Assembly: GCF_008727865.1 (NCBI RefSeq) | Contig: NZ_VTWU01000005.1 | Coordinates: forward strand, 62,001 to 126,000 | DNA: 64,000 bases | Source: Hymenobacter busanensis | GTDB taxonomy: Bacteria; Bacteroidota; Bacteroidia; Cytophagales; Hymenobacteraceae | Direction: 5' to 3' | Shown here: positions 4,494-24,348 of the stretch, in pieces | Numbering within the stretch: position 1 is the stretch's first letter | Layout: every line of letters begins with the position of its first letter | Notes under the pieces: generated by a model | Told to the model about the DNA's origin: nothing | Seen by the model: the letters and a program-made list of their open reading frames with translations, nothing else | Database searches by the model: none | Position numbers and translations under genes: made by a program

Positions 4494-5789
4494 GTGTACG
4501 AACAGTTATTAACCAAAGAAGCCAAACTGGCCGTTATCGGCCTCGGCTACGTGGGTCTGCCCATTGCTCTCGAATTTGCCCGCAAAATCAGCGTCATCGG
4601 CTTCGACATCAACGCCCAGCGCGTGGCCATGATGCAGAACCGCCAAGACCCCAGCGGCGAGCTGGAAGCCGAGGCGTTTGACGGTTGCGACATCACCTTC
4701 ACCGACTCGCTCGACGTGCTGCGCGAGGCCCGCTTCTTCATCGTGGCCGTGCCCACGCCCATCGACGAGCACGCCATGCCCGACCTGAAGCCGCTCATCG
4801 GTGCTTCTACCTCGGTGGGCAAGGTGCTCAAAGCCGGCGACTACGTGGTGTACGAATCGACCGTGTACCCGGGCTGCACCGAAGACGACTGTATTCCGAT
4901 CCTGGAGCGCGAGTCGGGCTTGAAATTTCCCACCGACTTCAAAGTCGGCTACTCGCCCGAGCGCATCAACCCCGGCGACAAAGAGCACACCCTCTCGCGC
5001 ATCGTGAAAGTGGTGAGCGGCTGCGACGAAGAGTCGCTGGAGGAAATTGCCAAGACCTACGAGCTGGTGGTATCGGCCGGTGTGCACCGCGCCTCGTCCA
5101 TCAAGGTTGCCGAAGCCGCCAAGATCATCGAAAACACCCAGCGCGACGTGAACATTGCGCTGATGAATGAGCTGTCGATGATTTTTGACCGCATGAGCAT
5201 CAACACTTTCGAGGTGCTGGAAGCGGCCGGTACCAAGTGGAACTTCCTCAAGTTTTCGCCCGGTCTGGTGGGCGGCCACTGCATCGGTGTCGACCCCTAC
5301 TACCTGACTTACAAGGCCAAAGAGCTGGGCTACGACGCGAAGGTTATCCTCTCGGGCCGCACCACCAACGACGGCATGGGCGCCTACATCGCGCGCAAAA
5401 CCGTGCAGATGATGATCAAGCAGGGCAAGGACGTGGCCAAGTCGCACGTGCTGGTGATGGGCGCTACGTTCAAGGAAAACGTGGAGGACATCCGCAACTC
5501 CAAGGTGGCCGACGTGATTACCGAGCTGAAGAACTTCTCGGTGAATGTGGACATCGTGGACCCGCACGCCGACTCGGATGAGCTGCACCACGAGTACGGC
5601 TTCCGCCTGACCCCGGAAGACCAGATGCGCACCGACTACGACGCCGTGGTGGTGGCCGTGAGCCACAAGCCCTACACGGAAAAGGACGAGGCTTACTTCA
5701 AGTCGATTACGGCGCCCAACGCGGTGCTCGTCGACGTGAAAGGCATGTTCCGCAACAAGATGGCCGACCTCCACTACTGGAGCCTGTAA
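4494..5789 (+). CDS. UDP-N-acetyl-hexosamine 6-dehydrogenase (nucleotide-sugar dehydrogenase, WbpA/TviB type)
   Basis: 431 aa, full length for the family. It oxidises C6 of a UDP-HexNAc to the uronate with two NAD+. The N-terminal Rossmann motif is GLGYVG (16-21); the central dimerisation domain and catalytic loop GGHCIGVDPYYL contain Cys263; the C-terminal UDP-binding domain has GATFKENVEDIRNSK. The last segment is the signature of the WbpA/TviB group rather than UDP-glucose dehydrogenases. No ATG exists before residue 45, so the start is the GTG at 4494, giving MYEQLLTKEAKLAVIGLGYVG. The gene follows the acetyltransferase by 10 nt and precedes galE by 98 bp, a spacer filled by an inverted repeat. 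Confidence 0.95.
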   Translation: MYEQLLTKEAKLAVIGLGYVGLPIALEFARKISVIGFDINAQRVAMMQNRQDPSGELEAEAFDGCDITFTDSLDVLREARFFIVAVPTPIDEHAMPDLKPLIGASTSVGKVLKAGDYVVYESTVYPGCTEDDCIPILERESGLKFPTDFKVGYSPERINPGDKEHTLSRIVKVVSGCDEESLEEIAKTYELVVSAGVHRASSIKVAEAAKIIENTQRDVNIALMNELSMIFDRMSINTFEVLEAAGTKWNFLKFSPGLVGGHCIGVDPYYLTYKAKELGYDAKVILSGRTTNDGMGAYIARKTVQMMIKQGKDVAKSHVLVMGATFKENVEDIRNSKVADVITELKNFSVNVDIVDPHADSDELHHEYGFRLTPEDQMRTDYDAVVVAVSHKPYTEKDEAYFKSITAPNAVLVDVKGMFRNKMADLHYWSL

Positions 5790-5802: not shown

Positions 5803-5873
5803 ATGGTTGGATGGCTAAATGGCTGGTCGTGCATACAAGGCAAGAACAAACAGCCATTTAGCCATCCACCCAT
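5803..5873. repeat. Intergenic inverted repeat A1 (ATGGCTAAATGGCT family)
   Basis: Arms 5803-5825 and 5851-5873 are 23 nt each and pair at 22 of 23 positions; the loop is 25 nt. The arms are built from repeats of AATGGCT or ATGGCTAA. The element starts 13 nt after the dehydrogenase stop, and its flank (another TTAGCCATTTG) runs up to the galE ATG. Three related copies lie at 6921, 9177 and 23812. Confidence 0.9.
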
Positions 5874-5887
5874 TTAGCCATTTGACC

Positions 5888-6919
5888 ATGAAAAAGATTC
5901 TCGTTACGGGCGGCGCGGGCTACATCGGCTCGCACACGGTGGTGGCCTTGCAGGAAGCGGGCTTCGAGCCAATTATCGTTGATAACTACGTCAATTCCAG
6001 TGTCTCGGTGTTGGAAGGGCTGCGGGCCATTCTGGGCGCTGAGGTGAAGCACTACGACGTGGACTGCACCGATAAGGCTGCGTTCCGGGGTGTGTTTGAG
6101 GCCGAGCCTGATCTGGCGGGCGTGATTCACTTTGCGGCCTACAAAGCCGTAGGCGAATCGGTGCAGAAGCCGCTGATGTACTTCCAGAACAACGTCGGCT
6201 CGTTGCTGGTGCTGCTGGAGCTGATGGCGGAGTTTAAGGTGACGAACCTGGTTTTCTCGTCGTCGTGCACCGTGTACGGCGTGCCCGACCAACTGCCCGT
6301 AACCGAAGAAACGCCGACCAAGCCCGCCAACTCGCCCTACGGCCGCACCAAGCAGATGTGCGAAGACATTCTGCGCGACCTGGCCCAGGCGCCCGACAAC
6401 GAGGTGAAAACCATTCTGCTGCGCTACTTCAACCCGGTAGGGGCGCATCCGTCGGCCCTCATTGGCGAGCTGCCGCTGGGTGTACCGCAGAATCTGATTC
6501 CGTTTGTAACGCAAACGGCCGCGGGCATCCGGGAAAAGCTCACCATCTACGGCGACACCTACGACACCCCCGACGGCACCAACATCCGCGACTACGTGCA
6601 CGTGGTGGACCTGGCCAAAGCCCACGTGGTGGCCGTGCAACGTCTGCTGCAAGCGCAAAGCACCGCCGTGGAAACCTATAACGTGGGCACCGGCCGCGGC
6701 AACTCGGTGCTGGAAGTGGTGCACGCCTTCGAGCGCGCTACGGGCCAGAAGCTCAACTACGTCATCGGGCCCCCGCGTGCCGGCGACGTGCCGGCCATCT
6801 ACGCCGACGTGACCAAAGCCACGGCCGAGCTGGGTTTCCAAACGACTTCTACCCTGGAAGAGGCACTGGCCAGCGCTTGGCGGTGGCAACAGCACCTGGG
6901 CGAAACGGCCAAAGGCTAA
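5888..6919 (+). CDS. galE: UDP-glucose 4-epimerase
   Basis: 343 aa extended short-chain dehydrogenase that interconverts UDP-glucose and UDP-galactose with bound NAD+. Seen in the sequence: the Rossmann motif TGGAGYIGSH (7-16), VIHFAAYKAVGESVQKP, the SSSCTVYG segment, catalytic Tyr151-x3-Lys155, LLRYFNPVGAHPS and GTNIRDYVHVVDLA. ATG 5888 gives the canonical MKKILVTGGAGYIG start; an upstream in-frame ATG at 5819 lies inside the repeat. It is the third gene of the nucleotide-sugar run. Both flanking spacers carry repeat-A elements, so the mRNA of this gene should be bracketed by hairpins. Confidence 0.97.
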   Translation: MKKILVTGGAGYIGSHTVVALQEAGFEPIIVDNYVNSSVSVLEGLRAILGAEVKHYDVDCTDKAAFRGVFEAEPDLAGVIHFAAYKAVGESVQKPLMYFQNNVGSLLVLLELMAEFKVTNLVFSSSCTVYGVPDQLPVTEETPTKPANSPYGRTKQMCEDILRDLAQAPDNEVKTILLRYFNPVGAHPSALIGELPLGVPQNLIPFVTQTAAGIREKLTIYGDTYDTPDGTNIRDYVHVVDLAKAHVVAVQRLLQAQSTAVETYNVGTGRGNSVLEVVHAFERATGQKLNYVIGPPRAGDVPAIYADVTKATAELGFQTTSTLEEALASAWRWQQHLGETAKG

Positions 6920-6920
6920 C

Positions 6921-6988
6921 TTGTCAAATGGCTGAATGGCTGCTTGTTTTGCTACCCCAGAGCAGCCAGCCATTTAGCCATTTAACAA
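6921..6988. repeat. Intergenic inverted repeat A2 (ATGGCTAAATGGCT family)
   Basis: Arms 6921-6942 and 6967-6988 (22 nt) pair at 20 of 22 positions around a 24-nt loop. The left arm begins immediately after the galE stop codon, and the right end continues as CAATTCAACC before rfbB. The loop core TTGTTTTGCTA...GAGCA is shared with copies A3 and A4, so this is a related sequence family. Confidence 0.9.
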
Positions 6989-7004
6989 TTCAACCAATTA
7001 AGAA

Positions 7005-8060
7005 ATGAAAATCATTATCACCGGCGGGGCCGGCTTCATTGGGTCGCACGTGGTGCGCCTGTTCGTGACCAAGTACCCCGAGTACCAGATTCTGAACCTG
7101 GACGCGCTGACCTACGCGGGCAACCTGGAGAACCTGCGCGACATCGAGAATGCGCCCAACTACCGCTTCGTGAAGGGCGACCTGACCGACCAGGCCTTTG
7201 TCGACCAACTCTTCGCCACCGAAGAGCCCGACGCGGTGATTCACCTCGCCGCCGAGTCGCACGTAGACCGTAGCATCACCGACCCGCTGGCGTTTGTGAA
7301 AACCAACGTGCTGGGCACCGTGCACCTGCTGAACGCGGCCCGCAACCTGTGGCAGCCGCCGGGCTACGAGGGCAAGGTGTTCTACCACGTGAGCACCGAC
7401 GAAGTGTACGGCTCGCTGGAAATGGGCACCGACATGTTCACCGAAAGCACCGCCTACGACCCCCGGTCGCCGTACTCGGCCTCCAAGGCGTCGTCGGACC
7501 ACTTCGTGCGGGCCTGGTACCACACCTACCACATGCCGGTGAAAATCAGCAACTGCTCGAACAACTACGGCCCCAACCACTTCCCCGAGAAGCTCATTCC
7601 GCTGGCCCTGCACCGCATCCAGAAGGGCGAGGCCATTCCGGTGTACGGCAAGGGCGAGAACGTGCGCGACTGGTTGTTCGTGAAAGACCACGCCACGGCC
7701 ATCGACGCGGTGTTTCACCAGGGCAAAGTGGGCGAAACCTACAACATTGGCGGGGTGAACGAGTGGAAGAACCTCGACCTGATTCACCTGCTCTGCGACG
7801 TGATGGACGAGAAGATGGGCCAGCCCCAAGGCACCTCGCGCCAGCTCATCAAGTTCGTCACCGACCGCGCCGGCCACGACCTGCGCTACGCCATCGACTC
7901 GTCGAAAATCATGAACGAGTTGGGCTGGAAACCCTCCGTCACCTTCGAGCAAGGCCTGCGCCAGACCGTCGACTGGTACTTCGACAACCAGGAATGGCTG
8001 CAGAACGTGACCAGCGGCCACTACCAGGATTACTACCGCCAGCAGTACGCGGCTAGATAA
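7005..8060 (+). CDS. rfbB: dTDP-glucose 4,6-dehydratase
   Basis: 351 aa. It converts dTDP-glucose to dTDP-4-keto-6-deoxyglucose, the branch point to dTDP-L-rhamnose and other deoxysugars. Motifs: GGAGFIGSHVVRLF at the N-terminus, LDALTYAGNLENL, LAAESHVDRSI, the catalytic STDEVYG loop, Tyr157-x3-Lys161, and NCSNNYGPNHFPEKLIP, all diagnostic of RmlB/RfbB. The ATG at 7005 directly precedes the Rossmann motif. rfbA lies two genes downstream, but rfbC and rfbD are not in the window, so rhamnose synthesis is incomplete here. Confidence 0.97.
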   Translation: MKIIITGGAGFIGSHVVRLFVTKYPEYQILNLDALTYAGNLENLRDIENAPNYRFVKGDLTDQAFVDQLFATEEPDAVIHLAAESHVDRSITDPLAFVKTNVLGTVHLLNAARNLWQPPGYEGKVFYHVSTDEVYGSLEMGTDMFTESTAYDPRSPYSASKASSDHFVRAWYHTYHMPVKISNCSNNYGPNHFPEKLIPLALHRIQKGEAIPVYGKGENVRDWLFVKDHATAIDAVFHQGKVGETYNIGGVNEWKNLDLIHLLCDVMDEKMGQPQGTSRQLIKFVTDRAGHDLRYAIDSSKIMNELGWKPSVTFEQGLRQTVDWYFDNQEWLQNVTSGHYQDYYRQQYAAR

Positions 8061-8065
8061 TGTGA

Positions 8066-8146
8066 AAATGTGCGGAATGTGGGAAATGTGATGAATGTGC
8101 CGGTCTGGAACTGAGCCGCCATCCATTTTCCACATTCCGCACATTC
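8066..8146. repeat. Intergenic inverted repeat B (AATGTG-type arms)
   Basis: Arms 8066-8088 and 8124-8146 pair at 21 of 23 positions around a 35-nt loop. Both arms are made of iterations of AATGTG; further AATGTG/CACATT copies extend the symmetry to about 8062-8162. The architecture matches the A elements in the neighbouring spacers, but the sequence is unrelated. Confidence 0.88.
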
Positions 8147-8170
8147 ATCACATTCACCACATTAAATAAG

Positions 8171-9178
8171 ATGTACGACTCCCCCTTTCACGAGCAGCCG
8201 CTCGATAACCTGACTTTCCTCGTGACCGGCGGCGCCGGCTTCATCGGCTCCAACATCGTGGAGTACCTGCTGAAGTACGGGGTGAAGAAGGTGCGCACCT
8301 TCGACAACTACTCCAACGGCTTCCGCAAGAACCTGCAGTTGTTCGAAGGCCACCCCGCGCTGGAAATCCTCGACGGCGACATCCGCGACGTGGAGGCCTG
8401 CCGCCGCGCCTGCGAAGGCGTCGACGTAGTGCTGCACCAAGCGGCGCTGGGCTCAGTCCCGCGTTCCATCAACGACCCGATTACCTCGAACGACGTGAAC
8501 GTGGGCGGCTTCGTGAACATGCTGGTGGCCGCCAAGGACGCCGGCGTGAAGCGCTTCGTGTATGCCGCCAGCAGCAGCACCTACGGTGACTCGCCCCACC
8601 TGCCCAAGATTGAGGACCGTATCGGCAAGCCCCTCTCGCCCTACGCCGTCACCAAGTACGCCAACGAGCTGTACGCCGACGTGTTTGGCAAGACCTACGG
8701 CATGGAAATCATCGGGCTGCGCTACTTCAACATCTTCGGCCCGCGTCAGGACCCGAACGGGGCGTACGCCGCCGTCATCCCGCTGTTTATCGACGCGGTG
8801 CTGCAGGGCAAGGCCCCGCGCATCAACGGCGACGGGGGCCAGACGCGCGACTTCACCTTCGTGGAAAACTGCGTGCAGGCCAACATCCGCGCCGCTCTGG
8901 TGCAGAACCCCGAGGCAGTGAATCAGGTGTATAACATTGCCGTGGCCGACCGCACCTCGCTCAACGACCTGTTCAACATCCTGAAGGAAGAGGCCGGCGT
9001 CGACATCACGCCCGAGTACGGCCCCAACCGCGCCGGCGACATCCGCGACTCCCTGGCCGACATTTCGAAGGCCGAACGGCTGCTGGGCTACCGTCCGCAG
9101 ATACGCATCCGCGAAGGCCTGCAGAAAACCCTGGCGTGGTTCCGCGAAAACCAGGAGTTTATTAAAAAAACGAAGTAA
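8171..9178 (+). CDS. UDP-N-acetylglucosamine 4-epimerase-like NAD-dependent epimerase (WbpP/TviC type)
   Basis: 335 aa extended SDR. Motifs: TGGAGFIGSNIVEYLL, DNYSNGFRKNL, VLHQAALGSVPRSI, AASSSTYGD, Tyr158-x3-Lys162, GLRYFNIFGPRQDPNGAYAAVIP and GDGGQTRDFTFVEN. The LGSVPRSI and FGPRQDPNGAYAAVIP segments are characteristic of the WbpP/TviC/Gne group, which prefers UDP-N-acetylated hexosamines (GlcNAc/GalNAc or their uronates). Together with the UDP-HexNAc dehydrogenase upstream it could supply UDP-GalNAcA. Substrate preference is inferred from family; other sugar epimerases share most motifs. Confidence 0.88.
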   Translation: MYDSPFHEQPLDNLTFLVTGGAGFIGSNIVEYLLKYGVKKVRTFDNYSNGFRKNLQLFEGHPALEILDGDIRDVEACRRACEGVDVVLHQAALGSVPRSINDPITSNDVNVGGFVNMLVAAKDAGVKRFVYAASSSTYGDSPHLPKIEDRIGKPLSPYAVTKYANELYADVFGKTYGMEIIGLRYFNIFGPRQDPNGAYAAVIPLFIDAVLQGKAPRINGDGGQTRDFTFVENCVQANIRAALVQNPEAVNQVYNIAVADRTSLNDLFNILKEEAGVDITPEYGPNRAGDIRDSLADISKAERLLGYRPQIRIREGLQKTLAWFRENQEFIKKTK

Positions 9179-9251
9179 TTGCCAAATGGCTGGATGACTT
9201 TGTGGCTGGTCGTTCTGGTAGAGCAATCAACCATTTAGCCATTTAACAATT
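9177..9251. repeat. Intergenic inverted repeat A3 (ATGGCTAAATGGCT family, more diverged)
   Basis: Arms 9177-9196 and 9232-9251 (20 nt) pair at 16 of 20 positions. The left arm overlaps the last bases of the preceding stop codon (TAATT). The right half (CATTTAGCCATTTAACAATT) is the same sequence as in A2 and ends 11 nt before the rfbA start. The loop contains GGTCGTTCTGGTAGAGCAA, related to A1 in inverse orientation. Confidence 0.82.
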
Positions 9252-9262
9252 CAACCCTTCCC

Positions 9263-10141
9263 ATGAAAGGCATCATCCTCGCCGGTGGCTCCGGCACGCG
9301 TTTGCATCCCCTCACGCTAGCTGTGTCGAAGCAGCTCATGCCGGTGTACGACAAGCCGATGATTTATTACCCGCTGTCGATTCTGATGATGGCCGGTATC
9401 CGGGATATCCTCATCATCACCACGCCCCACGACCAGGAGCAGTTCCAGAAACTACTCGGCGACGGTAAAAATCTCGGCTGCAACTTTCAGTACACCATTC
9501 AGGAGGTGCCCAACGGTTTGGCCCAGGCCTTTGTGCTGGGTGCCGACTTCATTGGCAACGACAAGGTGGCGCTGGTGCTGGGCGACAACATCTTTCACGG
9601 CGAAGGCCTAGAAGAGCTGCTGAAAAGCAACAACGACCCCGAAGGCGGCGTGGTGTACGCCTACCACGTGCACGACCCCGAGCGCTACGGCGTGGTGGAG
9701 TTCGATGCCAACAACAAGGCCCTGAGCATCGAGGAGAAGCCCGCCAAGCCCAAGAGCAATTACGCCGTGCCGGGCCTGTATTTCTACGACAACGAAGTGG
9801 TGCAGATTGCCCGCGACCTAAAGCCCTCAGCCCGCGGCGAGTACGAGATTACCGACGTGAACCAGGAGTACCTGCGCCGCGGCAAGCTGAAAGTGGGCAT
9901 CCTGGGCCGCGGCACCGCGTGGCTCGATACGGGTACCTTCGAAAGCCTGATGCAGGCCGGCGAGTTTGTGCGCGTGATTGAGCAGCGCCAAGGCCTGAAA
10001 GTGGGCTCCATTGAGGAAATAGCCTACCGCCAGGGTTTCATCGACGCCGACCAGCTGCGCAAGATTGCCGCGCCCCTGCGCAAGAGCGGCTACGGCGACT
10101 ACCTCATGCACCTGCCCGAAAGCCTGCTGCTGAACCAGTAG
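9263..10141 (+). CDS. rfbA: Glucose-1-phosphate thymidylyltransferase
   Basis: 292 aa, typical RmlA/RfbA length. It makes dTDP-glucose from glucose-1-phosphate and dTTP and supplies rfbB. The N-terminal pyrophosphorylase signature is [17 protein letters not shown]; further family blocks are [46 protein letters not shown] and [19 protein letters not shown]. It is the last gene of the operon and is followed within 12 nt by a 25-bp perfect hairpin. Confidence 0.97.
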
Positions 10142-11588: not shown

Positions 11589-11869
11589 CCCCTCCTTTTT
11601 GAAGGAGGGGACGCCGTGCCGCAGGCGCGGCTGGGGTGGTTCCTCCGTTGCTGAGGTTGAACGGACTGGTAGTAGAATGGCCAAGAAAGAACGGTCATGC
11701 AGAGCGTGAGCGAAGCATCTCGCGTGTTCAATCTGATTACTGCCACACATCAGCACGCGAGATGCTTCGCTCACGCTCTGCATGACGATCTAATGTAAAC
11801 AACGTCAGCAACGACCGAACCACCCCAGCATCGGCAAGCCGATGCATCCCCTCCTTTTTGAAGGAGGGG
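11589..11869. repeat. 281-bp composite nested palindrome
   Basis: Both ends are the same 22-nt self-complementary hairpin (11589-11610 and 11848-11869, identical; CCCCTCC...GGAGGGG). Inside are mirrored GCTGGGGTGGTT (from about 11629) and AACCACCCCAGC (from about 11818) blocks, then a perfect 33-bp inverted repeat around a 27-nt loop. The half-arms are symmetrical in order and roughly in spacing. The element occupies most of the 453-bp stretch between the chromate transporter and the oxygenase; no gene is credible inside it. It looks like a dispersed, non-coding mobile repeat. Confidence 0.88.
11694..11786. repeat. Perfect 33-bp inverted repeat at the core of the composite palindrome
   Basis: Arms 11694-11726 and 11754-11786 match without mismatch (starting GTCATGCAGAGCGTGAGCG). 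The 27-nt loop is TTCAATC...CACATCAG. Translation of the left arm creates the false N-terminus MQSVSEASRV of the chromate-transporter frame. Confidence 0.92.
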
Positions 11870-13891: not shown

Positions 13892-13968
13892 CCCCCTCTC
13901 CAAAGAGAGAGGGGGAGCCACGGCAGCGCGAGCGGCAGTGGTCCTACGACTCCAAGTCGTAGAACCAC
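13892..13968. repeat. Two short palindromic elements after the lipoprotein gene
   Basis: First hairpin: CCCCCTCTC (13892-13900) pairs with GAGAGGGGG (13907-13915), starting 12 nt after the stop codon. Second hairpin: 13938-13951 pairs with 13955-13968 at 13 of 14 positions (GTGGTCCTACGACT). Either could stop the lipoprotein transcript. Their style (perfect short arms in a convergent spacer) suggests dispersed intergenic repeats. Confidence 0.75.
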
Positions 13969-13995
13969 TATCGTTGCACGACCTCCGGCAGCAAT

Positions 13996-14037: not shown

Positions 14038-14049
14038 TTGGTGGCCACC

Positions 14050-14229
14050 GCAACACGTTGCAGTAGCCTTTCGGGGCGTCGGAAGTGGCCCGCAACAGGT
14101 TGCGGTAGGCTTTCGGCACGGCAAAACCCGGGTGCAACGTGTTGCGGTTGGCTTTCGGCCAGCCGAAATGGGCTGGCAACCTGTTGCGGTGCTTTCGGGG
14201 ACAACCGAAAGCCCGTCGCAACGTGTTGC
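14050..14229. repeat. Five-copy array of GCAACnnGTTGC palindromes with an exact 42-bp period
   Basis: Twelve-bp palindromes occur at 14050, 14092, 14134, 14176 and 14218: exactly 42 bp from start to start each time. The two central bases vary (AC, AG, GT, CT, GT). The 30-bp spacers are related, with (G)GCTTTCGG near the middle; in copies 3 and 4 this pairs with a following CCGAAA(G) to form a second hairpin. Forty-two bp equals 14 codons and about four helical turns. The array ends 14 bp before the stop codon of the convergent gene at 14244. With the hairpins just before it, it fills the 364-bp spacer from 13880. Confidence 0.95.
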
Positions 14230-22794: not shown

Positions 22795-23796
22795 TCACGT
22801 CAGCCGGGTTTCGTCGCGGCCGGGCTTGGTGCTGCTGCTCTGGCCGCCGGGGTTGGCAATGGAGTCGCGCATGTCGGTGTCGGCCTGGATGTTGCGCATT
22901 TTGTAGTAGTCCATGATGCCGAGGTTGCCGGAGCGGAAGGCTTCGGAAATGGCCTTGGGAATTTCGGCTTCGGCTTCCACCACGCGGGCCTTGGCCTCCT
23001 GGGTTTTGGCGCGGTTTTCCTGCTCCACGGCCACGGCCATGGCGCGGCGCTCTTCGGCTTTGGCTTCGGCTACTTTCAGGTCGGCGTTGGCTTGGTCAAT
23101 CTGCAGCTTGGCCCCGATGTTTTCTCCTATGTCCACGTCGGCAATGTCGATGGAGAGAATTTCGAAGGCTGTGCCGGCGTCGAGGCCTTTCTGCAGCACC
23201 AGCTTGGAAATCTTGTCGGGGTTTTCGAGCACTTCCTTGTGCGAAAGCGACGAGCCGATGCTGGTTACGATGCCTTCGCCCACACGGGCCAGAATGGTTT
23301 CTTCGCCGGCGCCGCCCACGAGCTGCGAGATGTTGGCGCGCACCGTTACGCGGGCTTTGGCAATGAGCTGAATGCCGTCTTGGGCCACGGCGGCCACGTT
23401 GGGCGTGTTAATCACCTTGGGGTTTACCGAGGTGGTAACGGCCTCGAACACGTCGCGGCCGGCAAGGTCAATAGCCGTGGCTTGGTTGAACGAGAGCGGA
23501 ATACCGGCTTTGTCGGCCGAAATCAGGGCTTTGATGACGGTGGGGACGTTGCCGCCAGCCAGGTAGTGCGTTTCTAAGTCGTTGGCCGTCAGGTTCAGGC
23601 CCGCCTTGGTGGAGGTGATGAGCGAGTTGACGATGAGCGACGGCGGCACCTTGCGCACTCGCATCAGCACCAGCTGAAACAGCCCCACGCGCACCCCCGA
23701 GAAGATGGCCGTAATCCAGAGGCTGATGGGGAAGAAATACAGAAACACCAGGAGCAGCACGGCTCCCAGGGCAACGGGTATCAGGGGGAAATTCAT
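22795..23796 (-). CDS. floA: Flotillin-like protein FloA
   Basis: 333 aa. N-terminal membrane hairpin/segment (about 5-40), SPFLOT core with [57 protein letters not shown] and [11 protein letters not shown], then an Ala/Glu-rich coiled coil (about 225-290, [41 protein letters not shown] in outline). The short tail ends in a non-conserved Ser/Gly-rich stretch. FloA forms oligomeric membrane microdomains. It lies downstream of nfeD, the usual partner, with an 87-bp spacer containing repeat A4. Confidence 0.96.
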
Positions 23797-23811: not shown

Positions 23812-23887
23812 TTAAATGGTTGAATGGCTAAATGGTTGTTTGTTCTGCTATCGGAGCAACCAGCCATTTAGCCATTGAGCCATTTAA
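23812..23887. repeat. Intergenic inverted repeat A4 (ATGGCTAAATGGCT family)
   Basis: Arms 23812-23838 and 23861-23887 (27 nt) pair at 24 of 27 positions; the 22-nt loop contains TTTGTTCTGCTATCGGAGCAAC. The right arm includes the bases of the nfeD stop codon (TTA at 23884-23886 on the plus strand). It is located more than 14 kb from copies A1-A3 and in a different operon, again between two co-directional genes. Confidence 0.9.
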
Positions 23888-24348
23888 GCGGCCGCTACCA
23901 CAATGCGGTTCTGCTCGATGCGCAGCACCTGCACCGTGGCGCCGGCGCCCACAAACTCGCCCAGCGTGGTGGCTTCGCGGCGTTCGTCGCCGAAGAGCAC
24001 CGTGCCGGCCGGGCGCAGGGCCGAGAGCGTGCGGCCCAATTGGCCGGGGGCCACATCGGGCCGGCGCACGTCGTCGACGCGGGCGGTGTTTTTGGTGGTG
24101 AGGGCAAAGCGGTTGACCGACTGGGGCCGCAGACCAATCCAGACGACGGCCGCCACCAGCACCGTTGCCGAGCCCAGCAGCACGTGGCCGGCGGAGGTGC
24201 CCAGGTCGCGGTAGCTGAGCCAGATGCCCACGGTGAGCATGATGAAACCGGCCAGTCCCACGATGGTAGTGCCGGGAATCAGCAGCACTTCGGCCACCAC
24301 AAACAAAGCGCCGAAGAGCAGCAAAACGACAATCAGTAGCCAGTCCAT
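23884..24348 (-). CDS. nfeD: NfeD-like membrane protein
   Basis: 154 aa, the short NfeD form without a protease domain. Three N-terminal membrane segments (about 3-22, 28-46, 52-72: MDWLLIVVLLLFGALFVVAEVLLIPGTT in outline) precede a C-terminal OB-fold domain (about 100-154; LGRTLSALRPAGTVLFGDERREA...VLRIEQNRIVV). NfeD proteins assist or anchor flotillins. It is directly upstream of floA. ATG 24348 was chosen because it starts the first membrane segment; an earlier in-frame ATG at 24423 lies across the promoter-like sequence. The stop codon falls inside repeat A4. Confidence 0.93.
   Translation of the reverse strand: MDWLLIVVLLLFGALFVVAEVLLIPGTTIVGLAGFIMLTVGIWLSYRDLGTSAGHVLLGSATVLVAAVVWIGLRPQSVNRFALTTKNTARVDDVRRPDVAPGQLGRTLSALRPAGTVLFGDERREATTLGEFVGAGATVQVLRIEQNRIVVAAA

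Follow-up and report, generated by a model that had tools for sequence, protein, structure and literature searches.

Tandem-arm hairpins at the gene junctions of a sugar-nucleotide operon in Hymenobacter busanensis and its relatives, candidate intercistronic linkers

Dispersed palindromes and the Hymenobacter hairpins

The ERIC and REP/BIME palindromes of enteric bacteria keep a fixed consensus in each family, and REP elements carry a GTAG- or CGTC-type tetranucleotide at their foot. Here we describe hairpins from a 64,000-nt stretch of the Hymenobacter busanensis genome (contig NZ_VTWU01000005.1, positions 62,001 to 126,000 of the forward strand; below, the window), where they fill the spacers of a sugar-nucleotide operon written here as tviB-galE-rfbB-tviC-rfbA. 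Compared by description, they resemble the enteric elements in being short palindromes with many copies in intercistronic gaps. They differ in that many unrelated units share one plan with near-tandem 7-8-mer arms, and in that the elements run from stop to start codon and differ as a whole between close species. Neither tetranucleotide is seen by eye at the outer ends of the 16-copy and 24-copy consensus of the main family, named AATGGCT after its unit.

Dispersed palindromes of the REP/REPIN-RAYT kind likewise occur in Bacteroidota genomes (PMC3116915, PMC6006769), and excerpts of one report place RAYT subclass 2.6, for which they note 'atypical secondary structures', in Bacteroidetes (PMC6006769). 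A RAYT-like gene is present here too: the host genome has two Pfam Y1_Tnp matches (L008 and L009; such handles denote our loci), and the RAYT-like gene at L008 carries NHFH and YIHQNP motifs. It is flanked by AGTGGTACTACGACT palindromes, not by tandem-arm hairpins, and no tandem-arm palindrome lies within ~1.5 kb of the gene at L009. As far as these flanks go, mobilisation of the tandem-arm elements by a RAYT is unsupported in the host genome. The AGTGGTACTACGACT palindrome, perhaps the host's REP family, lies at 13937-13969 of the window, at 1249-1281 and 1924-1957 of L008 and at 18732-18764 of L170. A convergent gap of the window (14046-14191) holds three imperfect 42-nt direct repeats (GCAAC..GTTGC.GTAG.CTTTCGG), which at once make up long inverted repeats.

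Direct repeats of the heptamer TAACTGA are reported from Beggiatoaceae, Cyanobacteria and five Bacteroidetes, and share with our hairpins the 7-mer units, the intergenic position close upstream of starts and a suggested role in translation (PMC4679880). They are direct repeats of one unit, for which the excerpted report describes no complementary second arm and mentions one inverted case, whereas the units here are imperfect, family-specific and inverted on the other side. In coupling by RNA unfolding, translation of the upstream gene opens a structure over the start region of the next one; the excerpts of that review concern individual gene pairs (PMC12548453), whereas the hairpins here form a dispersed, interchangeable class known from sequence. 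Integron attC sites, which have RYYYAAC ... GTTRRRY ends and go with an integrase, are likewise found between genes. Tandem-arm hairpins are not described in any title or abstract opening among the open-access papers listed, and Hymenobacter goes unmentioned in the excerpts of PMC12306157. Rfam release 15 gave six matches in positions 1-30000 of the window, all below the gathering threshold, one of them covering an AATGGCT copy at 23812-23887 (28.8 bits versus 90), and none in seven of the 80 loci of relatives introduced below. We regard the tandem-arm hairpins as a variant of dispersed intercistronic palindromes, without match in the literature titles or Rfam scans made.

Copies, units and junctions

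All four spacers of the operon in the window are filled. The initial annotation had described three inverted repeats (A1, A2 and A3) that fill spacers between co-directional sugar-nucleotide genes close to the next start, and these are present as described. Their arm pairing was reproduced (Table 1), with outer arms that pair without gaps and stop short of the next start by 14, 16 and 11 nt. Its count of three junctions holds for those three and is incomplete, as it overlooked the rfbB-tviC hairpin, A4, which has the same plan and the unit AATGTG. The claim that A1 lies in inverse orientation did not stand: the element is nearly palindromic and scores alike on both strands (75.9 bits on plus, 73.2 on minus). 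While the self-complementarity of A1 or A2 was reached by none of 1000 dinucleotide shuffles, that of A3 was reached by 238 of 1000 and its pairing is not above chance. By sequence A3 is a member of the AATGGCT family despite its weak pairing and poorly matched 5' arm, its 3' arm being 92% identical to A2 over 37 nt and its covariance-model score 64.1 bits (Table 1). A1, A2, A3 and the copy at 23812-23887 are among the rows from which the model was built, so the scores of A1-A3 are not independent. The copy at 23812-23887 sits between minus-strand genes called at 23884-24348 and 22795-23796 and overlaps the upstream stop codon. A4 has two more near-full-length matches and some partial ones elsewhere in the genome, which measures 4.89 Mb in 11 contigs, with the window in contig C7.

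The covariance model (R1) combines 16 copies, four from the window, four from elsewhere in the genome and eight from congeners. Searching the host genome with it gave 55 matches at E <= 0.01. They fall on 29 distinct places, and at most of these the palindromic nature of the element yields a match on each strand. Since 150 of 1166 first-look candidates were scored, the family occupies at least 29 places, weak matches among which may belong to other families; the search for further copies proposed in the initial annotation thus found many. By our own gene calls, 28 of the 29 places lie at co-directional junctions, one at a convergent junction, and none at a divergent one or inside a gene. The co-directional places begin 3-10 nt after the called stop in 21 cases and end 8-16 nt before the called start in 15. 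Gene starts come from our own codon-model caller, and several long element-to-start distances are probably due to misplaced starts; one place overlaps a called gene start by 36 nt and another has its called upstream gene 760 nt off. Copies in seven congeners (17 loci) are distributed alike, 16 co-directional and one convergent. Over 464 kb of the window's contig, including the window itself, a looser tandem-arm cut leaves 11 hairpins: eight co-directional, one convergent, two coding and none divergent. The junctions available there number 239 co-directional, 60 divergent and 60 convergent. Besides AATGGCT and AATGTG, the units of these hairpins include GTATTGAG, TTAGCTGTTGGC and AGTGCTTGG, and two of the nine intergenic hairpins (L157, L162) resemble terminators.

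For comparison we used 80 Hymenobacteraceae loci fetched by TviC, in which the operon gene order is kept, a few loci being incomplete. The closest named relatives, in a tree of 79 rows of operon proteins, are Hymenobacter sp. CRA2, 15J16-1T3B, H. edaphi, H. jeollabukensis and Solirubrum puertoriconensis. The Hymenobacter group, which includes the window, Solirubrum and a metagenome-assembled genome of the family, has 245 operon spacers, 12 of them shorter than 40 nt and four longer than 260 nt. Among 229 spacers tested, 132 are more self-complementary than all 100 of their shuffles (33/53, 22/60, 43/59 and 34/57). In Rufibacter, Pontibacter and Adhaeribacter 54 of 71 operon spacers are shorter than 40 nt; 14 of the 17 tested pass the shuffles, 12 of those at rfbB-tviC. 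Tandem-arm hairpins stand at rfbB-tviC and tviC-rfbA in two loci of Adhaeribacter (L117, L131). The rfbB-tviC spacer of Rufibacter, its only long junction (189-241 nt in L121, L122, L129, L130, L135, L136, L140, L142 and L149), has by eye a GCGTTT..AAACGC-like stem, often with a T-rich tail, and is perhaps an internal terminator. Three relatives have a small gene between tviC and rfbA: L080 (118 aa, 9053-9409) and, judged from a similar beginning of the tviC-rfbA spacer sequence, L089 and L096. Its product may be a 'four helix bundle'/23S intervening-sequence protein.

Across the four junctions, regular expressions picked out twelve tandem units: AATGGCT, GGTGAA, CAGTTGT, TTAGCTG, GAATTATG, AATTTTTAATT, ATGTGCT, ATGAGTG, TTAAGAG, CAGTTAACAGT, TTTCGCGAAG and AGTAACTGAG. 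The tviB-galE and rfbB-tviC junctions each have six. These labels leave 18, 27, 29 and 31 spacers of the 80 loci and the window unlabelled at the four junctions, and non-tandem palindromes of a GTCAT type also occupy operon spacers. From family to family the unit changes, but plan and position do not. A GTTCTG core common to all families was not established: it stands in mid-spacer in 2/9 ATGGCT, 5/17 GGTGAA and 2/7 CAGTTGT spacers and is absent from eleven other labelled families. Sixty-three loci contain 55 hairpins with both arms periodic, the period being 7 in 33 and 8 in 17. The lag threshold for calling an arm tandem is ad hoc (null 99% = 0.52), and the 55 include two GC-rich repeats of a different sort (L123, L152). 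All 55 together comprise 49 co-directional, three convergent and three called coding hairpins and no divergent one, where 609 co-directional, 139 convergent and 141 divergent regions are on offer. Of the 49, 36 lie inside the operon used to fetch the loci, which leaves 13 co-directional, three convergent and three coding outside it.

A DNA query with the AATGGCT element found matches in all eight genomes of the genus, and R1 at E <= 0.001 in 108 of 150 family genomes, a lower bound as 32 candidates were scored per genome. At E <= 1e-6, 16 of 148 order genomes match, nine of them outside the family. Nine of 11 loci read from these order-level matches hold tandem-arm hairpins, ATGACTGA and ATGATTGA being among their units. 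Outside the family four of six do and two do not, so that counts for distant genomes should be read as upper bounds. When the GAATTATG family was sought with a strict pattern, none of 395 phylum genomes matched, the pattern being too strict for this to carry meaning. On our favoured reading the three repeats are members of a Hymenobacteraceae class of intercistronic stem-loop linkers, and hairpins with this plan also stand in four genomes elsewhere in the order.

Table 1 Operon genes and tandem-arm elements in the window
Feature	Position	Strand	Evidence
Nucleotide sugar dehydrogenase, TviB-like, operon gene 1 (tviB)	4494..5789	+	NCBIfam TIGR03026 above cut-off; best match NF011729 TviB below its cut-off
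A1, AATGGCT-unit hairpin filling tviB-galE spacer	5803..5873	+	arms 22/23 paired; 0/1000 shuffles; R1 75.9 bits
galE, operon gene 2	5888..6919	+	TIGR01179 above cut-off
A2, AATGGCT-unit hairpin filling galE-rfbB spacer	6921..6988	+	arms 20/22 paired; 0/1000 shuffles; R1 73 bits
rfbB, operon gene 3	7005..8060	+	TIGR01181 above cut-off
A4, AATGTG-unit hairpin filling rfbB-tviC spacer, plan as A1-A3	8059..8163	+	score 68; 0/1000 shuffles
NAD-dependent epimerase, TviC-like, operon gene 4 (tviC)	8171..9178	+	best match NF011728 TviC, below its cut-off
A3, AATGGCT-unit element filling tviC-rfbA spacer	9177..9251	+	arms 16/20; R1 64.1 bits; 5' arm poorly matched, 3' arm regular
rfbA, operon gene 5	9263..10141	+	TIGR01207 above cut-off
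Further AATGGCT-family copy	23812..23887	-	score 82; 0/1000 shuffles; R1 88.7 bits

Geometry, arm polarity and turnover

The linkers span ~70-120 nt, from a few nt past the stop codon to ~5-20 nt before the next start, and have near-tandem 7-8-mer arms. In 125 operon spacers (score >= 36, not labelled GTCAT or GGCGCC) the median distance is 3 nt from the stop to the first pair and 12 nt from the last pair to the start, compared with 7 and 20 nt in 41 GTCAT spacers. The two kinds of palindrome also differ in where they lie. Outside the operon the GTCAT-type palindromes (GTCATGCTGAGC) lie at 12 co-directional and 11 convergent junctions, one divergent junction and one sequence end, whereas tandem-arm elements are found at 40 co-directional and four convergent junctions (Fisher p = 0.0003); the latter count joins the relatives' elements outside the operon to the 29 host places, three of which are in the operon, and leaves out three 'coding' ones. 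Judged from sequence, tandem-arm elements appear confined to co-directional junctions, unlike the GTCAT type. One such palindrome, a perfect 33-bp inverted repeat of the type GTCATGC(A/T)GAGC...GAAGCATCTC, lies at 11694-11786 of the window and represents a second family that is frequent in Hymenobacter spacers.

The arms are polar. The 5' arm has more G than C in 77 of 88 tandem-family spacers, yet in only 7 of 13 with the unit TTAGCTG, compared with 18 of 41 GTCAT spacers and 19 of 111 short non-tandem hairpins, which include convergent ones read on an arbitrary strand. In the three convergent tandem-arm hairpins the G:C counts of the 5' arm are 20:6, 24:1 and 13:12. The 30 nt before the start are poor in G with or without a hairpin (10.7 and 10.9%; 13.2% in the outgroup). 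Of 48 hairpin-less spacers, seven keep a periodic tract, which is always the 3' arm (six at galE-rfbB and one A3); together with the G-poor 30 nt this agrees with the next gene using the 3' arm as its leader.

At a given junction the element can change entirely. Between H. jeollabukensis (L076) and H. edaphi (L078) the genes around tviB-galE are 95-99% identical, yet one species has an AATGTG hairpin in the spacer and the other a GTGAAATG hairpin. This difference extends from the stop codon to the ATG. Over the final 60 nt of tviB the identity is 0.90 versus 0.97-0.98, a drop that would suit exchange by homologous recombination from other species but is seen at the end of the upstream gene at many junctions. 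Thirteen hand-picked alignments of close species show a different element in seven, one of them long versus short, and the same family in six. Replacement was judged by eye, as the spacer identities of 0.69-1.00 come from gapped alignments and do not measure it. When 24 loci of the host were compared with 23 loci of other genomes, an orthologous AATGGCT element was found at five. At atpA-atpG an 87-nt element is identical base for base in three congeners (L051, L056, L057) whose flanking coding DNA is 82-95% identical, which may reflect either recent spread or a strong constraint. In four further congeners this junction is occupied by a CAGTTGT hairpin. The kept element at atpA-atpG and the swapped hairpin at tviB-galE mean that a linker can be either strictly kept or fully exchanged.

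Translational coupling and its alternatives

Bacteroidota-group ribosomes scarcely use Shine-Dalgarno sites. Starting from the observed copies, plan, position, polarity and turnover, we tentatively favour, at somewhat less than even chances, the reading that the hairpins are linkers which translationally couple neighbouring genes. In the polycistronic mRNA the hairpin would bring the stop codon and the next start near each other and partly mask the G-poor leader of the next gene. A terminating ribosome would then cover the outer 5' arm and free the 3' arm beside the next start, so that translation of the second gene would be coupled to that of the first with no need of a Shine-Dalgarno site. 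Many unrelated unit families show this plan, with a G-richer 5' arm and a G-poor (C/A/T) 3' arm; the AATGGCT family at least is scattered over the genome, and one junction holds different families in different species.

Folding predictions agree with the RNA-unfolding model of coupling in their geometry (excerpts of PMC12548453). In 85 hairpin spacers a modelled ribosome footprint, which begins 15 nt ahead of the end of the stop codon and reaches 13 nt past it, is predicted to raise the unpaired fraction of positions -20 to -1 by 0.143, versus 0.001 in shuffled spacers, with higher values in 61 of the 85. The start codon is also predicted to be more open than in shuffles (0.566 versus 0.470). 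In the window the predicted openness rises from 0.451 to 0.571 at tviB-galE and from 0.690 to 0.750 at galE-rfbB. Pairing as such is supported among copies. In 24 of the 29 host copies there are 61 two-sided changes versus 33 +/- 5 in shuffles (0/500), at 22 of 35 pairs (4/500), and pairing falls from 80.5% to 19-41% when the partner is shifted by 1-3 columns. This set leaves out two places of ambiguous orientation and three long ones and takes its structure from one perfect copy, and the shuffles ignore relatedness. In the consensus fold of the 16 model copies, 10 of 26 pairs show two-sided changes.

Several observations weigh against coupling. The folding result is largely a consequence of the stop-to-start geometry, and at rfbB-tviC the footprint is predicted to lower openness over A4 (0.522 to 0.439). 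Convergent copies exist, where coupling cannot apply, and a review describes a library screen in which coupling was lowered by structure directly behind the stop codon (PMC12548453). Copying of palindromes as such would also produce covariation among copies. In 27 non-GTCAT ortholog pairs (of 39 in all) changes between Watson-Crick and G.U pairs (71) or A.C (62) and other single changes (82) far outnumber Watson-Crick to Watson-Crick doubles (15) and doubles to or from non-pairs (10), a pattern that does not suggest selection on RNA pairing. Changed sites are 320 of 2383 paired and 118 of 620 unpaired; the 27 include a few unlabelled GTCAT-like or other hairpins and one Rufibacter. The 12 GTCAT pairs give 27, 20, 27, 1 and 7 in the same five classes. 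On the sense strand G.U is not in excess over A.C, either in 76 spacers (171 to 228) or in 22 host-genome copies (48 to 73), though terminator-like control hairpins lack an excess too (40 to 44), so that this test has little power. Judged from these comparisons, copies seem to be born with matched arms whose pairing then decays with little compensation.

This decay is the main argument for an origin as mobile palindromes, according to which the elements would be non-autonomous (REPIN- or MITE-like), have no host function and persist where they do least harm, with stems that decay with age. The dispersal over at least 29 host places and over the genus and family agrees with such an origin, as do near-perfect copies beside decayed ones (L069, L074, L212) and, by eye, a short spacer in L111 that resembles a deletion derivative of that in L112. 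Convergent gaps, however, where least harm is expected, hold 1 of the 29 places, while GTCAT-type palindromes use them freely. Moreover, neither of the two Y1/RAYT genes has these elements within ~1.5 kb, a cognate enzyme was not found in this analysis, and unrelated units share one plan. We hold a purely selfish element to be somewhat unlikely; in any case, elements that arose by dispersal could also have a role in translation. The initial annotation had offered a role in the polycistronic mRNA or a miniature dispersing element that is limited to intercistronic sites; both ideas survive, and the confinement has become stronger with 28 of 29 places co-directional.

Intercistronic BIMEs of enterics set segment stability along the polycistronic message, and the stems here, of 20-35 bp, could in the same way be cut by RNase III or block 3'-5' exonucleases. 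Stem length, the site after stop codons, the few elements at convergent 3' ends and a plan free of any one sequence would all suit such a role in processing or stability. It leaves unexplained why the elements end so close to the following start, why so few lie at convergent ends (1/29) and why the arms are polar, and compensation between orthologs is weak. We consider this role doubtful.

That the hairpins are intrinsic terminators or attenuators is very improbable, although they do follow stop codons. The 3' arms of A1-A4 are followed by no T-run but, by eye, by an A/C-rich stretch up to the start with at most three T in a row, and the elements lie inside an operon of conserved gene order. 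Their arm polarity is opposite to that of the short non-tandem hairpins (77/88 versus 19/111), which bears out the earlier view that they are unlike ordinary terminators; on polarity and the missing T-run we rejected this explanation. Ordinary conserved leader DNA of the operon, which could account for the G-poor 30 nt with or without hairpin and for the identical atpA-atpG element, is hardly credible and already contradicted, since orthologous spacers hold unrelated sequences and one family sits at 29 genome places. Identity of orthologous spacers, which the initial annotation had named as the sign of such a leader, does not occur in general, as the sequences often differ under a shared plan, and is seen in part, with the family kept at 5 of 24 host loci and the element identical at atpA-atpG.

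Returning to linkers that couple translation, we also consider a bolder version, which we judge to be rather unlikely: that stop-to-start linkers in Cytophagales operons are interchangeable, with unrelated families that fit one socket, are written or exchanged whole and set coupling without Shine-Dalgarno sites. If this modular reading were true, the linker would be an evolvable part of the operon, neither junk nor fixed leader. If the hairpins do act as linkers, they would provide a large natural set of matched operon junctions, with the same genes and different linkers, from which the effect of intercistronic structure on translation could be read out directly, in a phylum that makes little use of Shine-Dalgarno sites. 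Even if purely selfish, the elements would be a class of palindromes that keeps with unusual strictness to the inside of operons and is replaced as whole elements, a combination that asks for some mechanism of copying or exchange.

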